A DNA stretch of 64,000 nucleotides from Planktothrix rubescens CCAP 1459/22 (GTDB taxonomy: Bacteria > Cyanobacteriota > Cyanobacteriia > Cyanobacteriales > Microcoleaceae), in NCBI GenBank assembly GCA_904830895.1, contig LR882958.1:3860001-3924000 (forward strand). Direction: 5' to 3'. The translations under genes were made by a program, and so were the position numbers. Below the pieces are notes generated by a model, which saw only the letters and a program-made list of their open reading frames with translations, was not told where the DNA came from and made no database searches. This document shows, in pieces, positions 1,855 to 9,600 of this stretch. Position 1 is the first letter of the stretch, and every line of letters starts with the position of its first letter.

Positions 1855-3024
1855 ATGACAATAGCCCTCGTAAACGAACAAAATTTAGTCAAACAAGTAG
1901 TTCAAGATATTCAGCAAAATGAAATTACTATTGCTGCCAAAAAATTGCGTCAACAGGCTGAAAATTCTTGTGAACTTCCCCACGAATGGCTACTAAAAAC
2001 AGCAGAGGCTTTAGAAAATAACGACTGGAGTATTTTGGCGGAAGATTTTATCAATATGGATTTTATTGGTAAAAATGGTTATTTCTTAATTATTGCCCCT
2101 TATAAAATTAATCGACAATGCCAAGGTCAGGTAACTTTAAGTGCGATTTCTGGAAAAATACACGATAATTCTCAACCCTCTATTGAACAATTAGAAAATC
2201 TCAGTCGGGAAAAATTTGGCACTTTAGGTCAACCTGTTCCTAGAAACCTTTCCTTTACCGAAATTGCCAGTTGCGGTCATCTTAGTGGGGAAAAAGGTGA
2301 AGCCTTCATTGTTCCCAATGGCTGGCCTTTTCCTAATAGTATTGAGGGCCCAGCATTAAACAATTCCAGTGAACAGCGACGACGTTTTTTAGGTTTCAGC
2401 CACCAATGTATCCAAACAATTTTTGAACCGGAAACTGCTAATTTATTATTAGCCCCCTTAGAAGATGAAATCAATAGTGAACGCTATCGCCACGTTGACA
2501 CTCAAGTACATGAAGCCGGCCATGCAAGCGGTTTAGGATTTGATTTCAAGGCAAACCAGAACCTTTTTCAAAATTATACATACGCGGGTGTAGAAGAATG
2601 GCGATCGGATAGTCTCGGATTTGAGTTTGCTGCTTGCACTTTACCTGCTGAAGAAGCTGGGAAATTGGTAGCAGTTAATTTCTGCATTCGCTTTGGTTTA
2701 GATGCTCACCGTTTAGGCGGCGTAGAAAAAGATACGGATGTTCATGCTAGTTTGATTAGCTTAGAATATCTTTTTCAAAATGATGCCATTTATATTACTA
2801 AAAATGGTCAATTAGCTTTGCGTAATTTGAGTTATCCCGGTTTACTACAAGCGGTGGAACTTCATCGAGCGCAAGCATTATCTATTACCCGCAGGGAGTT
2901 AAATCTGAAAAGTCCTACAGGTATTTTCTCGCTGTACAAAATAGACATTCACCCATCAACTTTGTCAGTTTTTCAAGGACTAATTATAGAACGTTGTCAA
3001 GGAATATGGAGACATTTGCAGTAG
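1855..3024 (+). CDS. HEXXH metallopeptidase-like protein in the RiPP neighbourhood
   Basis: This 389-residue protein is not a family I can name. It has an HEAGH motif at about residues 219-223 and, about 24 residues later, EEWRSD (247-252). That layout is HEXXH followed by E-x-x-x-D, as in gluzincin zinc peptidases, and the second motif recalls EECRAE of the dipeptidyl-peptidase III family. I see no signal peptide and no clear membrane segment, so it should be cytoplasmic. It starts 47 bases after the transporter stop and is followed by a methyltransferase, which suggests one operon. Microviridin clusters lack an obvious leader peptidase, so a role in trimming a precursor is an attractive inference, but it is untested and no direct evidence links it to the precursor at 8583. 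Confidence 0.75.
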   Translation: MTIALVNEQNLVKQVVQDIQQNEITIAAKKLRQQAENSCELPHEWLLKTAEALENNDWSILAEDFINMDFIGKNGYFLIIAPYKINRQCQGQVTLSAISGKIHDNSQPSIEQLENLSREKFGTLGQPVPRNLSFTEIASCGHLSGEKGEAFIVPNGWPFPNSIEGPALNNSSEQRRRFLGFSHQCIQTIFEPETANLLLAPLEDEINSERYRHVDTQVHEAGHASGLGFDFKANQNLFQNYTYAGVEEWRSDSLGFEFAACTLPAEEAGKLVAVNFCIRFGLDAHRLGGVEKDTDVHASLISLEYLFQNDAIYITKNGQLALRNLSYPGLLQAVELHRAQALSITRRELNLKSPTGIFSLYKIDIHPSTLSVFQGLIIERCQGIWRHLQ

Positions 3025-3101
3025 CATACTGATCATATAATTGTGGAGTGGCAAAAAGCCTTACAGATAAATCAATCAAAGATCAAAACTGGAGATTAAA
3101 A

Positions 3102-3899
3102 ATGGATAGAAACGAATGGATTAGTAAATTTGATGGTTTAATTCTCAATCCTTCGATTCGGAAATTCTACGGTCAAAAAGAGTTTTTTAATGTGGGTTAT
3201 TGGCGCTCAGATACCCAAAATCAACAGGAATCTTGTTTTAATTTAATGGAAAAACTTTTAGAATTTATTCCCGAAAAGCAGGGAAATATTCTCGATGTTG
3301 GCTCCGGTTTGGGCGCAACAACCAGTTACCTCCTCAATTATTATTCCTCGGCAGCAATTGTGGGAATTAATATTTCCCCTACACAAATTGAAAGAAGTAT
3401 TTTGAACGCTCCTGACTGCAAATTCCTGTTAATGGATGCGGTTAATATGGAATTTGAGGATAATTTTTTTGATAATATTATTTGTGTAGAATCAGCTTTC
3501 TATTTTGATACCAGAGAAAAGTTTCTAAAAGAGGCTTGGCGGGTGTTGAAACCGGGGGGAAATTTAGTTCTCTCGGATATGAGTTTTGCCACGACAGAAT
3601 ATTTAGGTGATTGGACTGTTCCCCAAGCTAATACGGTTAAAGATATTGCCGAATATCAAAATATTTACCAACAGTTGGGATTTCAACAGTTACAATTCGT
3701 GGAGGCGACGGAGGAATGTTGGTTCCGACATTTTCGACATCTAAAATCTTGGCTGGGAGAAGAATTTCAATCAGAAAAGATGGACGAAGAAACCTATAAT
3801 GCTAATGTTAATGCTATAGATAATTTATTAAGTTCTTCAGCAATAACTTATTTATTGGTAGCAGCAAAGAAACCATTTGGAGTTAGTCAAGTTAAATAA
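3102..3899 (+). CDS. class I SAM-dependent methyltransferase
   Basis: A 265-residue methyltransferase. Motif I is ILDVGSGLGATTSYLL, followed by an acidic region, the motif IV-like DNIICVESAFYF and the post-motif VLKPGGNLVLSDM. The fold and order match small-molecule or peptide O/N/C-methyltransferases of the ubiE/SAM-MT type. I place the start at ATG 3102 because GGAG lies 7 bases upstream. A longer frame beginning with GTG at 3048 is possible but has no good ribosome-binding site. The gene sits between the HEXXH protein and mvdA. Its substrate cannot be read from the sequence. It may modify the product of a peptide pathway upstream or a carboxylate of the microviridin; both are inference. 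Confidence 0.85.
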   Translation: MDRNEWISKFDGLILNPSIRKFYGQKEFFNVGYWRSDTQNQQESCFNLMEKLLEFIPEKQGNILDVGSGLGATTSYLLNYYSSAAIVGINISPTQIERSILNAPDCKFLLMDAVNMEFEDNFFDNIICVESAFYFDTREKFLKEAWRVLKPGGNLVLSDMSFATTEYLGDWTVPQANTVKDIAEYQNIYQQLGFQQLQFVEATEECWFRHFRHLKSWLGEEFQSEKMDEETYNANVNAIDNLLSSSAITYLLVAAKKPFGVSQVK

Positions 3900-3942: not shown

Positions 3943-5736
3943 ATGCAAACTCAAGTTCCCCCTGACAAAACTATCACCAATCCCCTTTCATCTTTGACTC
4001 GATTTTTGCAAGATGTTAAAATTATTGCTCAACCTTACTGGTATCCCACAGAGTTAAATGGACGGGCATTTTCCGATGTGATTTGTTCCTGGGGAATGTT
4101 GGCTCTAATGGTTTTAAGCATAATTTTGCTAGTGAGTGTCGATGCTTTTGCCAGCTTCTGGAATCGCCATGTCCTAGATATTGTGATTGAACAAAGAGAC
4201 CTTTCTAAGTATCTTGAGACTCTCTGGCTGTCTAGCTTTTTGATTGTGCTGATCACCTGTTTAGTCGCCCTGGCTCAATTTGTTAGGAAAAAAGTTGCTC
4301 TTGATTGGTATAAGTGGCTAAGTAATAACACCTTAAAACAATATTTGAGCGATCGCGCCTATTATAAAATTGGTTTTACATCGGGTTTAGAAAATCCTGA
4401 CCAACGTTTATCCCAAGAAATTGAACCGATTACCACCATAACCTTGAGGTTTTTAACAACCTTATTAGAAAAGAGTCTGCAAATGATCACTTTTCTGGTT
4501 ATTCTTTGGACAATTTCCCAAGAGATTACTATTTATCTAGTTATCTATACCATTTCTGGTAACTTTATTGCGGTGTATTTAACCCAAGAGTTAAATAAGA
4601 TTAATCGAGCGGAACTTAACTCTAAGGCTGAATATAATTATGCCCTAACCCATGTCCGAGATCATGCGGAATCCATTGCTTTTTTTCGAGGGGAGGAACA
4701 GGAAGAAAAAATCATCGAACGCAGATTTAATAATATTATCAAAAATGCTGAACAAAGAATTAATTGGGAGAGATTTCAGGATCTTTTTAATCGTGGCTAT
4801 CAGTCTGCGATTAGTGTTTTTTCGATGTTTATTCTGACACCAATGTTCATTCAAGATAAAATTGATTTTGGAGAAATTAGTCAAGCCAGTTTATGCTGTT
4901 TTCTCTTTTCTAATGCCTTGGGACAACTGGTAAGTGAGTGGGGAACTTCAGCAAAATTATCTAATTATATTGAGCGTTTAGCCTCCTTTTCTGATGGCTT
5001 AAAAACAGTGAGCCTAGAACCAAAAAACCTCGGTAGGATTACAACAGTAGAAGACAACCGTTTAGCTTTTGAGAATTTTACTCTACAAACCCCAGATTAT
5101 GAGAAAGTAATTGTTGAAAATTTATCCCTATCAGTTCCATCGGGAAAAGGTTTATTAATTGTTGGCCCTAGTGGTCGCGGTAAAAGTTCTTTGCTACGAG
5201 CGATCGCAGGTTTATGGAATGCAGGAACCGGGCGTTTAGTGCGTCCTGCCCTCGAAGAAATGTTATTTTTACCCCAACGTCCTTATATTATTTTGGGCAC
5301 TCTGCGTGACCAACTCCTTTATCCCCATACCACTGATCAAATTGCTGATCAAGAACTGGAAAAAATCCTAGAAAAAGTCAACCTTCAACATTTATTAACT
5401 CAAACTAATGTTTTTGATAAACAAGTAAATTGGGAAAATATTTTATCATTAGGAGAACAACAGCGACTAGCCTTTGCCCGAATGTTAGTTGCCCGTCCCA
5501 GTTTCGCCATATTAGATGAAGCCACCAGTGCTTTAGATTTAATTAATGAAGAAAGTTTGTATCAACAATTACAGCAAACCCAGACAACTTTTATCAGTGT
5601 AGGACATCGTGAAAGTCTATTTAATTATCATCAATGGGTACTAGAACTTGCAGAAAATTCTCGTTGGCAACTTTTGACCGTTGAGGACTACCAACAGCAA
5701 AAATTCGGGGCGATCAATTTTCTTAAAAAATCTTAA
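3943..5736 (+). CDS. mvdA: microviridin cluster ABC transporter (MvdA/MdnE type)
   Basis: A complete 597-residue half-transporter with several N-terminal membrane helices and a C-terminal ATPase (Walker A GPSGRGKSS near residue 407, signature LSLGEQQRLAF near 501, Walker B ILDEATSALD near 522). It belongs to the same SbmA/YddA-type family as the gene at the left edge and the one at 60458. In Planktothrix and Microcystis microviridin clusters a transporter of this type is encoded with the ligases and is thought to export the peptide and help hold the modification complex at the membrane. Its position directly before the acetyltransferase supports the name mvdA. Export of this particular peptide is inferred from context. 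Confidence 0.88.
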   Translation: MQTQVPPDKTITNPLSSLTRFLQDVKIIAQPYWYPTELNGRAFSDVICSWGMLALMVLSIILLVSVDAFASFWNRHVLDIVIEQRDLSKYLETLWLSSFLIVLITCLVALAQFVRKKVALDWYKWLSNNTLKQYLSDRAYYKIGFTSGLENPDQRLSQEIEPITTITLRFLTTLLEKSLQMITFLVILWTISQEITIYLVIYTISGNFIAVYLTQELNKINRAELNSKAEYNYALTHVRDHAESIAFFRGEEQEEKIIERRFNNIIKNAEQRINWERFQDLFNRGYQSAISVFSMFILTPMFIQDKIDFGEISQASLCCFLFSNALGQLVSEWGTSAKLSNYIERLASFSDGLKTVSLEPKNLGRITTVEDNRLAFENFTLQTPDYEKVIVENLSLSVPSGKGLLIVGPSGRGKSSLLRAIAGLWNAGTGRLVRPALEEMLFLPQRPYIILGTLRDQLLYPHTTDQIADQELEKILEKVNLQHLLTQTNVFDKQVNWENILSLGEQQRLAFARMLVARPSFAILDEATSALDLINEESLYQQLQQTQTTFISVGHRESLFNYHQWVLELAENSRWQLLTVEDYQQQKFGAINFLKKS

Positions 5737-5777: not shown

Positions 5778-5834
5778 GTAGGGGTTGGGTTTCCCAACCC
5801 TCTTTGCGCCTGGGTTTGGAGACCAAACCCCTAC
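5778..5834. repeat. double palindromic intergenic repeat
   Basis: A 57-base repeat with outer arms GTAGGGGTTGGG and the matching end AAACCCCTAC. Each half is itself a palindrome (GGGTTGGGTTTCCCAACCC, and GGGTTTGGAGACCAAACCC). It lies between mvdA and mvdB and could fold into one long or two short hairpins, so it may affect mRNA stability or read-through. It looks like a dispersed cyanobacterial intergenic repeat rather than a designed operator. Confidence 0.75.
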
Positions 5835-5872
5835 AGGTTTTTATCACCAATCATTTAGAATTACTATATAAC

Positions 5873-6412
5873 ATGGGTGATCTTGTTACCAAACGATTAC
5901 GTTTAGTGCCTTTTAAATTGCCAATTGTACAAGCGGCAATGATTGGCGATACTGAATTAGCAAAAGTTCTAGGTGTTACGGTTTTATCTGACTGGATTGA
6001 TCAAGAATTTTATGATAACTTGTCAGAAATTGCCAATATACTGAACAAAAGTCCATTGCAAGGGGAATGGGGATGGGGAAATTTAGTGATTCAACAAGCA
6101 GAAAATACCCTGATTGGTCACGTCATGCTTAAAATTATTCCAGATATCCCCGATCCCACAGGTTCCCCCACAGGAGCACTGGAAATTGGCTATCAAATCG
6201 CTCCCTCCTATCGACGACAGGGATACGGATCTGAAGCGACAAAAGCAGTGTTAGACTGGGCATTCTCTCAACCTTCTGTGGAAAAAGTGACAGCCGGCTG
6301 CTATGCTGATAATATCGGTTCCAAAAGATTGCTAGAAAAAATCGGAATGCAGCACACAGAAACCCGATCCAATGGTCAAGTATTAGTTTGGGAATTATCG
6401 CGTTCTTCTTAG
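5873..6412 (+). CDS. mvdB: GNAT acetyltransferase, microviridin N-acetylation
   Basis: A 179-residue GNAT-fold enzyme. The acetyl-CoA pyrophosphate loop RRQGYGSEA is visible, preceded by the LEIGYQIAPSYR strand and followed by the C-terminal ADNIGSKRLLEKIGM segment typical of RimJ/RimL-like members. In microviridin pathways this enzyme (MvdB/MdnD) acetylates the new N terminus after the leader has been removed. I chose ATG 5873. The frame extends further upstream, but that part runs through the palindromic repeat and encodes repeat-derived residues. It is followed after 59 bases by the ATP-grasp genes. Confidence 0.88.
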   Translation: MGDLVTKRLRLVPFKLPIVQAAMIGDTELAKVLGVTVLSDWIDQEFYDNLSEIANILNKSPLQGEWGWGNLVIQQAENTLIGHVMLKIIPDIPDPTGSPTGALEIGYQIAPSYRRQGYGSEATKAVLDWAFSQPSVEKVTAGCYADNIGSKRLLEKIGMQHTETRSNGQVLVWELSRSS

Positions 6413-6471: not shown

Positions 6472-7446
6472 ATGTCTTTGTCTCGTGATGTCGTTTTATT
6501 GATTACTCATAGTGGAGATTTTTTCACCATTGATCGAGTCATAGAAGCCCTATTAAAAAAAGGCGTACAACCCTTTCGTTTTGATACGGATCAATTTCCC
6601 CTCAATGTCCAATTAACTGCAAATTTTGGCAAATTAAAAAGCGATCATCAACTGGAATATAATGGTCATTCTATCAGCACAAAACAGGTACAAGCGGTTT
6701 GGCTACGACGGATCTGGGAGCCTGATTTTCAGGAATTAGACCCCCAATATCAACAGGCCTGTGCTAAGGAATCAAAGGCAACTTTAAACGGCTTTTGGGA
6801 CAGTCTGAGAGAAGCTAATTGGGTTGATCATTTAGCAAAAATTGAGGCGGCAAGTAATAAACTACTGCAATTAAGATTAGCCTCAGAATTGGGATTTACT
6901 ATTCCGCAAACATTGATCACAAATAAAGCCGAAGCCGCACGGGAATTTTTTCAACAAGTTAACGGCAAAATGGTGAGTAAGCTATTAACCGCTCTTTCTC
7001 GTAGTATGGAAAGCACTTCTTTTTTTCTTTATACTAGCTTAGTTAAAGAGGAAGATTTACAAGATGCGGAGTCATTACGTTATTGTCCAATGGTTTTCCA
7101 AGAACAAATTTCTAAGCAACAGGAATTGCGAGTTATTTATGTGAATGGTAAGGTATTTGTGGGCGCGTTAAATGCTTCTGTTTATGAAGATTCTACAGTG
7201 GATTGGCGATCTCCTGGTATCGAGGTTGGTGCCTGGCAAAATCATCAACTTCCTGAAGAATTGATCCGTCGTCTTCAAACTTTTATGGGTGAATTGGGGC
7301 TATTATTTGGAGCTTTTGATTTTATTCTTACACCGTCGGGAGATTATGTCTTTTTAGAAGTTAATCCTGGCGGTGAATGGGGAATGCTGGAAAGGGATTT
7401 GAATTTGCCGATTTCTCAAGCGATCGCCGATACCTTGATTCCCTAA
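6472..7446 (+). CDS. mvdC: microviridin ATP-grasp ligase, omega-amide (MdnB/MvdC type)
   Basis: A 324-residue ATP-grasp ligase beginning with the VVLLITHSGDFFTIDRV segment characteristic of MdnB/MvdC. The C-terminal grasp region contains GAFDFILTPSGDYVFLEVNP, with the Asp, Glu and Asn expected to bind Mg-ATP. From the known pathway, this member forms the lactam between the core Lys and the acidic residue near the C terminus, after the ester ligase has acted. GGAG lies 11 bases before the ATG. It is followed by its paralog after 35 bases. The split of roles between the two ligases is assigned by resemblance to the known pair. Confidence 0.92.
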   Translation: MSLSRDVVLLITHSGDFFTIDRVIEALLKKGVQPFRFDTDQFPLNVQLTANFGKLKSDHQLEYNGHSISTKQVQAVWLRRIWEPDFQELDPQYQQACAKESKATLNGFWDSLREANWVDHLAKIEAASNKLLQLRLASELGFTIPQTLITNKAEAAREFFQQVNGKMVSKLLTALSRSMESTSFFLYTSLVKEEDLQDAESLRYCPMVFQEQISKQQELRVIYVNGKVFVGALNASVYEDSTVDWRSPGIEVGAWQNHQLPEELIRRLQTFMGELGLLFGAFDFILTPSGDYVFLEVNPGGEWGMLERDLNLPISQAIADTLIP

Positions 7447-7481: not shown

Positions 7482-8474
7482 ATGACGGTTTTAATTTTCA
7501 CTTTCAGCAACGATAATGAAAGTATTCCCCTGGTTGTTAAAGCTATTGAAGCTAAGGGTGAAAAAGCCTTTCGTTTTGATACCGATCGCTTTCCTACGGA
7601 AGTAAAACTCGATATTTATTCGGGTGATTTTGAGGGAGGAATAGTTACTGATGGAGAACAGAAATTAGACTTAAGTGAAGTCTCCTCGGTTTGGTATCGG
7701 CGTATGAGATATGGCGCCAAACTTCCTGATAGTATGGATCAGCAATTTCGGGAAGCGTCTCTAAAAGAATGTCGCCTTACCGTCCGAGGATTAATTGCTA
7801 GTCTACCGGGCTTCCATTTTGATCCGATGATTAACGTTGATCGGGCTAATAATAAGCAATTGCAATTACAAATTGCCCGACAATTGGGTTTATTAACTCC
7901 CCGGACTTTGACCTCAAATAATCCCGAAGCTGTCAAACAATTTGCCCAGGAATGTAAAGAGCAAGGAATTGTTACTAAAATGCTCTCTCAATTTGCAATT
8001 TATGGTGAAAATAAAGAAGAAAATGTCGTGTTTACCAGTCCCGTAACTGATGATGATTTAGATAATCTGGAAGGGCTAAGTTTTTGTCCGATGACTTTTC
8101 AAGAAAATGTCCCTAAAGCCCTAGAATTAAGGACAATTATTGTCGGGAAACAGGTATTTACTGCTGCCATCAACTCTCAACAATTAGACGGAGCTACCTA
8201 TGATTGGCGGAAAGAAGGAAGGGCTTTAACTGAAAAATGGCAAACCTATAATTTACCCGAAGATATTCAGAAAAAACTACTGCAACTGACGGCTTATTTT
8301 GGCTTAAACTATGGAGCTATTGATATTATTGTCACCCCCGATGGTCGGCACGTTTTCCTAGAAATTAATCCCGTTGGCGAGTTTTTCTGGTTGGAATTAT
8401 TTTCTCCCTATTTCCCTATTTCCCAGGCGATCGCTGAAATTCTGCTCACTCCTACAAACCATCTTAGTGATTAA
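7482..8474 (+). CDS. mvdD: microviridin ATP-grasp ligase, omega-ester (MdnC/MvdD type)
   Basis: A 330-residue ATP-grasp ligase. Features of MdnC/MvdD are plain: the N-terminal VLIFTFSNDNESIPLVVKAIE, the VWYRRMRYG segment, LQLQIARQLGLLTPRTL, and the C-terminal GAIDIIVTPDGRHVFLEINPVGEF with the metal-binding Asp, Glu and Asn. In the known pathway this enzyme binds the precursor leader helix (PFFARFL) and forms the two ester bonds between core Thr/Ser and Asp/Glu. A strong ribosome-binding site, AGGAG, precedes the ATG. The gene directly precedes the precursor. It shows no sign of decay. Confidence 0.93.
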   Translation: MTVLIFTFSNDNESIPLVVKAIEAKGEKAFRFDTDRFPTEVKLDIYSGDFEGGIVTDGEQKLDLSEVSSVWYRRMRYGAKLPDSMDQQFREASLKECRLTVRGLIASLPGFHFDPMINVDRANNKQLQLQIARQLGLLTPRTLTSNNPEAVKQFAQECKEQGIVTKMLSQFAIYGENKEENVVFTSPVTDDDLDNLEGLSFCPMTFQENVPKALELRTIIVGKQVFTAAINSQQLDGATYDWRKEGRALTEKWQTYNLPEDIQKKLLQLTAYFGLNYGAIDIIVTPDGRHVFLEINPVGEFFWLELFSPYFPISQAIAEILLTPTNHLSD

Positions 8475-8518: not shown

Positions 8519-8549
8519 TTGACATATCCTGATTGATTCGTGATAGAAT
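8519..8549 (+). promoter_or_regulatory. putative promoter of the precursor gene
   Basis: An extended -10 box, TGATAGAAT (8541-8549), lies 33 bases before the mvdE start. About 19 bases upstream of it is a TGACA segment that could serve as the -35 region. The spacing is slightly long, so the extended -10 would carry most of the recognition. A separate promoter would let the precursor be made in excess of the enzymes. This is read by eye only. Confidence 0.45.
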
Positions 8550-8582: not shown

Positions 8583-8735
8583 ATGTCTAAAAATATCAAG
8601 GTATCGACCGGATCAGCAGTCCCCTTCTTTGCTCGTTTCTTGTCAGAGCAAGACACAGAAACTGGTGATTCTACTTCTACCGATATCCCCACGATCTGGA
8701 CTTTGAAGTGGCCTTCCGATTGGGAAGATAGTTAA
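8583..8735 (+). CDS. mvdE: microviridin precursor peptide (MvdE/MdnA)
   Basis: A 50-residue peptide. The leader holds the invariant PFFARFL motif at residues 14-20, which the two ligases recognise. The core lies at the C terminus: T40-L-K42-W-P-S45-D46-W-E48-D49-S50. By analogy with microviridin B, esters would join T40-D46 and S45-E48, and the lactam would join K42-D49. If the core is 14 residues it begins at T37. Compared with the common TxKYPSDWEEY pattern, this core has Trp for Tyr after Lys, Asp instead of Glu at the lactam position, and Ser rather than an aromatic residue at the end. No clear ribosome-binding site precedes the ATG. A strong terminator follows. Only one core is present. 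Confidence 0.95.
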   Translation: MSKNIKVSTGSAVPFFARFLSEQDTETGDSTSTDIPTIWTLKWPSDWEDS

Positions 8736-8765: not shown

Positions 8766-8811
8766 AGGGAGTAGCAGTTATTCAATAACTAAAAGCTACT
8801 CCCTATTTTTG
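8766..8811 (+). terminator. rho-independent terminator after mvdE
   Basis: Stem arms AGGGAGTAGC (8766-8775) and GCTACTCCCT (8795-8804) are perfectly complementary, with an inner AGTTATT/AATAACT helix, followed by ATTTTTG. It separates the precursor transcript from the downstream dehydrogenase-like gene. Confidence 0.85.
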
Positions 8812-8862: not shown

Positions 8863-9600
8863 ATGTTTGAGTTGCTATCAGGAAAAAAGGTAGTTATTAT
8901 TGGCATGAATTCAGGAGTTGACCTGGCGATCGCCAATAAAATGCTAGAATTGGGGGCAAAAGTTGTACTTTCTCACCCATCTTCAGAGAAATTAAATCAG
9001 GCGATCGGATTAATTTATGGAGAGATTGAAGCTAAAACCGTTAACATTTTGAATCAAGATTCAGTTAATACTTTTTTTGAAGAAGTGGGAAACTTTGATC
9101 ATTTAGTCGTAACTGCTATCGGAGACAGAAATATGCCCCGATCGCTATTAGCAGAAATGACCACAGAAACGGCTCAAGGTGCCATGGACAAGTTCTGGGG
9201 AACATTTTTTGCTGTGCGTGCCGGGTTGAAAACCATAGCCACCGATGGCTCCATTACCCTAACCTCCAGTGTTTCTATGTTTAAATCTTCAAAACTGGGA
9301 GGGATTTCCGTGATCGCCGCCGCTAATAGTGCCGTTGCCGCATTTGGCCGATCGCTGGCCTTAGAAATCGCACCAATTCGGGTCAATGTGATTGCTCCTG
9401 GACTGATAGAGGATAACAGCATCTGGAGCAGTCAAGGCGAGTCTGAACGTTCAGACCTCAGTAAGTGGGCGATCGCAGCCTTACCTGTGGCCCATCTGGG
9501 GCAACCCGATGAACTAGCGCAAGCGGTATTAAGTTTGATGACTAATCCCTATATGACCGGGGTGATTTTACCTGTTGAGGGTGGAGTCACCTTGATCTAA
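8863..9600 (+). CDS. SDR-fold protein with degenerate active site, downstream of microviridin precursor
   Basis: A 245-residue protein with the length and overall pattern of short-chain dehydrogenases (for example APIRVNVIAPGLIEDN and the C-terminal TGVILPVEGG). The dinucleotide loop reads IGMNSGVD instead of TGxxxGxG. Ser138 of the catalytic triad is present, but the YxxxK motif is I151-A-A-A-N155, so both catalytic Tyr and Lys are gone. It is therefore unlikely to be a normal NAD(P)-dependent reductase; a binding, scaffold or altered catalytic role is possible. AGGAG precedes the ATG. It occupies the place of a sixth gene in a microviridin-type cluster but is separated from the precursor by a terminator. 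Confidence 0.85.
   Translation: MFELLSGKKVVIIGMNSGVDLAIANKMLELGAKVVLSHPSSEKLNQAIGLIYGEIEAKTVNILNQDSVNTFFEEVGNFDHLVVTAIGDRNMPRSLLAEMTTETAQGAMDKFWGTFFAVRAGLKTIATDGSITLTSSVSMFKSSKLGGISVIAAANSAVAAFGRSLALEIAPIRVNVIAPGLIEDNSIWSSQGESERSDLSKWAIAALPVAHLGQPDELAQAVLSLMTNPYMTGVILPVEGGVTLI

Follow-up and report, generated by a model that had tools for sequence, protein, structure and literature searches.

A probable mvdF-type microviridin precursor as the only precursor of a Planktothrix rubescens mvd cluster

Microviridins attract study as inhibitors of proteases and as deterrents of grazers, and Arg at their specificity position has been tied to trypsin inhibition. In Planktothrix, the potential precursor genes are mvdE and mvdF, of which one or both are present; predicted peptides were detected in strains with mvdE, and strains that have mvdF only yielded no detected peptide (PMC9366434). 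For P. rubescens PCC 7821, microviridin is listed as n.d. by LC-MS in Table 5 of that paper and as N.D. by LC-MS in Table 2 of PMC6784222, which itself names low amount as a possible reason for non-detection. Microviridins that await assignment are on record for P. rubescens CPCC 507 and 733 (PMC10891876). The published consensus TXK(Y/W/F)PSDW(E/G)(E/D) includes Trp after Lys (PMC8310014), and the standard description of the core has Glu/Asp13 (PMC9826346, where a platform of ligases fused to the leader is also described). In Nostoc sp. TH1S01, Tyr is replaced by Phe and Trp, and the three microviridins isolated all stem from one cluster (PMC8386392).

The window analysed here is a stretch of 64,000 nucleotides from P. 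rubescens CCAP 1459/22. It carries an mvdA-B-C-D cluster, in which the reading frames of both ligases, MvdC and MvdD, are intact, and downstream of it an intact class I microviridin precursor gene (Table 1) with the 50-residue translation MSKNIKVSTGSAVPFFARFLSEQDTETGDSTSTDIPTIWTLKWPSDWEDS, followed by a stop. Its sole match to a solved structure at E <= 1 is 5ig9, a microviridin precursor (E 2.5e-6). As family scores exceed their cut-offs and GNAT, MvdC and MvdD are encoded upstream, a chance reading frame is excluded. As in class I microviridins, the leader contains PFFARFL and a single TxKxPSDx(E/D)(E/D) core (T40-D49) lies at the C-terminus, which reads T40-L41-K42-W43-P44-S45-D46-W47-E48-D49-S50; the translation has no double-glycine motif, and Pfam matched no C39 peptidase domain in either of the window's two ABC proteins. 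A second such precursor was not found in the same genome, where the next match has E = 1.95 and PF12559 matches once. The original prediction had recognised the precursor from PFFARFL and the T-x-K-x-P-S-D-x-E scaffold and had pointed to Trp after Lys, Asp49 at the lactam position and the terminal Ser. Translation and profile scores bear this out, and a Lys-Asp lactam is indeed one carbon smaller than a Lys-Glu lactam.

Table 1. Features of the microviridin locus, with positions in the window.
Feature	Position	Strand	Basis
SAM methyltransferase, neighbour of uncertain role	3048..3899	+	PF08241
mvdA, ABC transporter	3943..5736	+	PF06472, ABC_tran; 96-99% identity to two other Planktothrix genomes
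mvdB, GNAT N-acetyltransferase	5804..6412	+	PF13302; mvd gene set as in PMC7823629
mvdC, ATP-grasp lactam ligase	6472..7446	+	TIGR04185, 520 bits (cut-off 425)
mvdD, ATP-grasp ester ligase	7482..8474	+	TIGR04184, 547 bits (cut-off 475)
Hybrid promoter-like stretch: TTGACA (8519-8524), 19 nt, TAGAAT (8544-8549)	8519..8549	+	alignment with G045; read by eye
Junction of missing segment: ~750 bp with two mvdE genes in G045, absent in window	8530..8535		alignment with G045
Microviridin precursor, mvdF type (KW)	8583..8735	+	translation; NCBIfam NF033738, 45.4 bits (curated cut-off 26); Pfam PF12559, 43.6 bits (curated cut-off 21)
Leader motif PFFARFL (residues 14-20)	8622..8642	+	translation
Predicted 14-residue core TIWTLKWPSDWEDS	8691..8732	+	alignment with MvdE precursors; ring pattern from PMC9826346
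Inverted repeat AGGGAGTAGC...GCTACTCCCT 3' of precursor, possible terminator	8766..8804	+	by eye; not called by scan
SDR oxidoreductase, neighbour of uncertain role	8863..9600	+	PF13561

Very long open frames upstream of the window are read as the apn NRPS, and the ABC gene at 5-1807 is read as apnE from its position and PMC9366434. Between this apnE-like gene and the methyltransferase gene, a DUF6014 protein with a HEAGH stretch is encoded (1855-3024), which is kept in Planktothrix. Homologues of the DUF6014 protein, the methyltransferase and the SDR are grouped in some other cyanobacteria as well, once adjoining a thioesterase domain.

The three residues had been taken as unusual, but each of them turned out to have a precedent in print. 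Trp after Lys is covered by the consensus and by microviridin-1748 (see below); Asp13, the lactam position, occurs in microviridins E, I, L and others (PMC8310014 for part of these); and the core of Microcystis PCC 7005 ends with EES (PMC8310014). A set of our own, drawn from 157 loci, comprises 80 distinct precursors whose core matches K[WYF]PSD[WFL], many of them near-copies; 76 were counted, leaving out four two-core or fragment rows. The 22 KW rows among these have Asp at the lactam position in 18 cases and Ser as last residue in 11. The original prediction had proposed a search for an identical core: in the running text of the literature, which the search covered, the exact core and combination of features was not found, and three further Planktothrix genomes encode close copies. 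In view of these copies and of the precedent for each feature, we consider it highly improbable that the core is unusual enough to yield a structurally new congener. A new congener as such is possible, but the gene type is already known, and the claim is unproven since the peptide was not detected in the strains with mvdF only.

PF12559 matches in 5 of 61 genomes of the family. Within the genus, 7 of 10 genomes match a DNA pattern for PFFARFL and four, including the source of the window, have a KW precursor; the other three copies are identical to that of the window at 44, 45 and 49 of the 50 residues. G045, from the same species, encodes the precursors FSTYKYPSDFEDF and YGNTMKYPSDWEEY, followed by TIWTFKWPSDWEDS, and PCC 11201 encodes YETRKYPSDWEEF, followed by PVWTLKWPSDWEDS, so that in both genomes the KW precursor sits after the canonical mvdE gene or genes. 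The draft genome UBA8402 has PVWTLKWPSDWEDS on a contig of 4.8 kb that carries no further mvd gene, and MvdD is encoded on a different contig. Four loci outside the clusters (L226, L227, L229, L230) were considered as extra precursors and rejected as not precursor-like. Among the Planktothrix KW genes, dN/dS is about 0.1-0.6 on 3-11 nucleotide differences; it is about 0.5-0.6 in the four distant pairs, on only 10-11 differences each, so that constraint may be weak among these.

From this gene order we infer, with a probability of about 0.8, that the window gene is the mvdF-type second class I microviridin precursor of Planktothrix: it corresponds to a second precursor that is the sole one in some strains and for which no product has been detected in the strains described in PMC9366434. 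The mdnA gene of P. rubescens NIVA CYA 98 (PMC2739229) may be the same gene as mvdF. The span from mvdA to the precursor is 4.8 kb in the window and 5.66 kb when the SDR gene is included; the mvdA-F length of 5.6 kb printed for PCC 7821 (PMC9366434) fits only with the SDR gene.

In the window, mvdD and the KW gene are separated by 108 bp, compared with 855 bp in the alignment with G045. Up to TTGACATATCCT, this interval matches exactly the beginning of the G045 mvdE upstream region; from GATTCGTGATAGAAT onward it is identical to the upstream region of the G045 KW gene. PCC 11201 has one canonical mvdE in the same interval, and thus loss of mvdE in the lineage of the window is the simplest reading: about 0.75 kb with the mvdE gene(s) would have been cleanly removed, leaving the KW gene as the only precursor. 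The junction falls within a putative promoter. Positions 8519-8530 are identical to DNA 5' of mvdE in G045 and positions 8535-8549 to DNA 5' of its KW gene, so that a -35-like box of mvdE now appears to precede the -10-like box of the KW gene itself. A promoter scan restricted to spacers of 16-18 nt did not list this TTGACA-19-TAGAAT arrangement. The clean absence of mvdE, which leaves a lone KW precursor under hybrid -35/-10-like boxes, is new in this analysis. The inverted repeat downstream of the precursor is also found 3' of both mvdE copies in G045, and each precursor gene may form its own transcription unit.

With mvdE gone, the precursor might be silent or a relic and the cluster without product, which is compatible with its being mvdF. 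The two negative mass spectrometric surveys of PCC 7821 and the failure to detect a peptide in the mvdF-only strains of PMC9366434 point in this direction, as does the 19-nt spacing of the promoter-like boxes after the loss of mvdE. On the other hand, frame, leader and ligases are intact, the core is kept in other genera, and a product that has another N-terminus or is scarce may have escaped the surveys, scarcity being named in PMC6784222. Overall we find a silent or relic gene somewhat doubtful. The original prediction had proposed to look for a product with three water losses, and the two surveys go part of the way towards its absence.

For the mvdF-type precursor, maturation would follow that of the family. 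The PFFARFL helix would recruit and activate MvdD, which would close the expected esters T40-D46 and S45-E48, and MvdC would next close the lactam K42-D49. A peptidase would then remove the leader, perhaps after P36, to leave the 14-mer, MvdB would acetylate its N-terminus, and MvdA would export the product or act as a scaffold. We would expect a tricyclic inhibitor of serine proteases, with Leu41 at what we take to be the specificity position. Its computed [M+H]+ is 1751.81 when acetylated and 1709.80 when not; among the values computed for N-termini from residue 24 to 40 with 2-3 water losses is also 1848.86. Gene and ligase frames, the core shared between genera and the absence of mvdE were seen directly, while the peptide is predicted.

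Masses reported for related strains were compared with this prediction. The window core could not be matched to the 1971.8 ion of NIVA CYA 98 (PMC2739229) when the N-terminus, the number of water losses (0-3), acetylation and methylation were all varied; 1971.93 was reached by the G045 Phe variant alone, after two losses. The nominal masses 1969.8, 1640.8 and 1803.8 of PMC9366434 (decimal assumed) gave three fits of odd combination, namely 1969.97 (one loss plus methyl) and 1640.77 (two losses plus methyl) for the window core and 1803.80 (two losses plus acetyl) for the Phe variant; given the number of combinations tried, such fits do not count as evidence, and the candidates were rejected. 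For microviridin E, the computed plain tricyclic mass is 1632.68, compared with 1665.7 in print, a difference of about 32-33; the printed value is taken as that of the ring-opened methyl-ester form, as printed for microviridin D. The masses of the three microviridins from Nostoc TH1S01 fit three cores of one locus in our set (L021), the 1748 one being KW: Ac-YETKKWPSDWEEY minus 3 H2O has a calculated mass of 1747.7518, and 1747.7496 was observed. Microviridin-1748 thus fits a matured KW core by mass, within 0.003 Da, which suggests that KW cores are matured elsewhere and supports the assignment to mvdF.

The cleavage motif deserves separate mention. The residues following PFFARFL lead to LSEQ in the window and in G045, and to LAEQ at this position in PCC 11201 and UBA8402; LSEQ resembles the LAEQ/LEEQ cleavage motif and is identical to neither. 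Three cleavage sites of the M1 peptidase NosP have been shown in a Nostoc leader, one of them beside LEEQ, and the NosP homologue of Planktothrix agardhii NIVA-CYA126/8 is split (PMC13039773). There is one M1 peptidase match in the source genome of the window, an 875-codon open frame and a candidate of the NosP type. An LxEQ motif is present in 6 of 22 KW rows versus 45 of 54 other rows, where x was [AES] for the former and [AEGSV] for the latter (allowing the latter set for KW as well would not raise their number), and due to this rarity many KW precursors may be cut differently.

Although ordinary in itself, the window gene draws attention to a widely shared sub-group. Among 388 genomes of the order, 32 match the pattern K[YFW]PSDWE[DE] and 23 of these have a KW copy, eight of them together with a KY or KF copy. 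In each of the 23, an aromatic residue precedes the Thr of a KW copy. WTxKWPSDWE itself occurs in 20 of the 388 genomes, from seven genera, in all cases without the one mismatch allowed. We propose that the window core belongs to this shared sub-group, which is new in this analysis; neither a name for it nor a report of its finished product was found in the parts of the literature searched, and it may already have been described. Viral contigs yielded 94 stretches matching a pattern and no relatives. A further KW precursor is IFTLKWPSDWEDC at L155 (G652), and Nostoc loci L029-L037 in part represent a second sub-group around PWTYKFPSDLED[KR], which also has an aromatic residue before Thr and a non-aromatic end. 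L029 belongs to Nostoc TH1S01, a strain for two of whose three clusters the predicted products went undetected (PMC8386392).

In this sub-group, an aromatic residue stands ahead of the first ester Thr and the C-terminus is non-aromatic, a design that appears to mirror the classical microviridins. Of the 38 rows in which an aromatic residue precedes the ester Thr, 3 have an aromatic C-terminus, compared with 34 of the 38 rows in which it does not (Fisher 1.9e-13, not corrected for kinship; two rows ending at the acid were counted as non-aromatic). This value has to be read in the light of the trees, which show repeated label changes and only three independent pairs: in a leader-only tree, the traits are opposed in 2.4 of the three supported pairs on average, which is not significant. 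A single origin of the type with an aromatic residue before Thr was rejected, as the 76-row tree, built from few columns with the core columns included, needs five label changes, at least three of them forced by supported branches.

Nine of the 12 genomes of one genus (g31), which is probably Microcystis as its member G325 has an exact copy of the microviridin B core, match K[YFW]PSDWE[DE], and all nine have KW. Their 14-residue KW core is identical in eight of nine genomes, while the five KY cores in four of the genomes (one a leaderless fragment) all differ; the KW genes show low nonsynonymous change (dN 0-0.04, dS 0-0.22), more clearly so than those of Planktothrix. The WTxKWPSDWE precursors could form a separate functional class I lineage, in which the flanking aromatic has shifted from the C-terminus to the position ahead of Thr4. 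Holding their core constant beside the variable canonical cores of these genera, they might be directed at a conserved protease, perhaps one of the cell itself, rather than at the changing proteases of grazers, and might need special conditions or another leader peptidase, but we offer this tentatively and regard it as rather unlikely. An aromatic residue ahead of the ester Thr is absent from all variants in the part shown of Table 2 of PMC8310014, so that searches by mass aimed at canonical products may have missed the design.

A further possible explanation of the missing product is that the neighbouring methyltransferase and SDR modify it and shift its mass from the plain prediction. Both genes flank the cluster in the window, and in eight of the nine KW genomes of g31 their homologues (73-78% identical) lie about 5 kb or less from the KW precursor; six of these (G325, G586, G628, G642, G653, G666) retain only a 40-49-residue piece of mvdC locally. 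However, both homologues occur in the same 12 of 23 KW genomes and the other 11 lack both at E <= 1e-30. The SDR (E <= 1e-60) is also found in 12 further genomes among the 388 that have no KW core, and so a role in the pathway is weakly supported. In eight of these 12, the methyltransferase lies in the same 3.7 kb locus; a thioesterase domain adjoins the pair in L215, an ABC transporter is adjacent in five loci, and three of the genomes (G521, G650, G685) have a KY core. Tailoring by the two enzymes is therefore quite unlikely.

MvdD is present in 22 of the 23 KW genomes, the exception being the 93% complete draft G666, and ligases lie 0.18-3.4 Mb from the KW gene in G325, G628, G642 and G641 and on another contig in G586, G653 and G710; both are full-length in G615 and G593 of g31. 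At the six loci with an mvdC remnant (L139, L143, L151, L193, L195, L198), full ligases exist elsewhere in five genomes and none was found in the draft G666. L156 and L157 (G641, G710) have a KW precursor and an mvdA-like transporter without ligases in 14 kb, and these were found elsewhere in both genomes. L148 (G667) combines a KW precursor with mvdD and mvdA and has no mvdC in 14 kb, and a bicyclic product is conceivable; a second ATP-grasp match, scoring like MvdC, is located some 3.3 Mb from this locus.

In comparison with known systems, the window gene resembles mvdF (PMC9366434) in its genus, in a cluster beside apn, in being a precursor besides mvdE and in a product that was not detected, a likeness drawn from gene order and published description. 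The MvdE precursors of microviridins E and K from Planktothrix are 60-62% identical over the whole window precursor and share PFFARFL and the same ring residues, with Asp at the lactam position in E; they differ in having KY instead of KW, an aromatic C-terminus, no aromatic residue before Thr4 and a shorter linker. Microviridin-1748 of Nostoc sp. TH1S01 (PMC8386392) probably shares the KW core, with three water losses and an acetyl group fitting its mass, but the core assigned to it ends with EEY, has no aromatic residue before Thr and has Lys between Thr and Lys. The KW precursors of g31 and of Nostocales (e.g. ...APVWTWKWPSDWEDS) have the aromatic residue before Thr, KWPSDWE[DE] and the non-aromatic end in common with the window precursor, from which they differ by a Pro-rich linker and, mostly, by the absence of the LxEQ motif.
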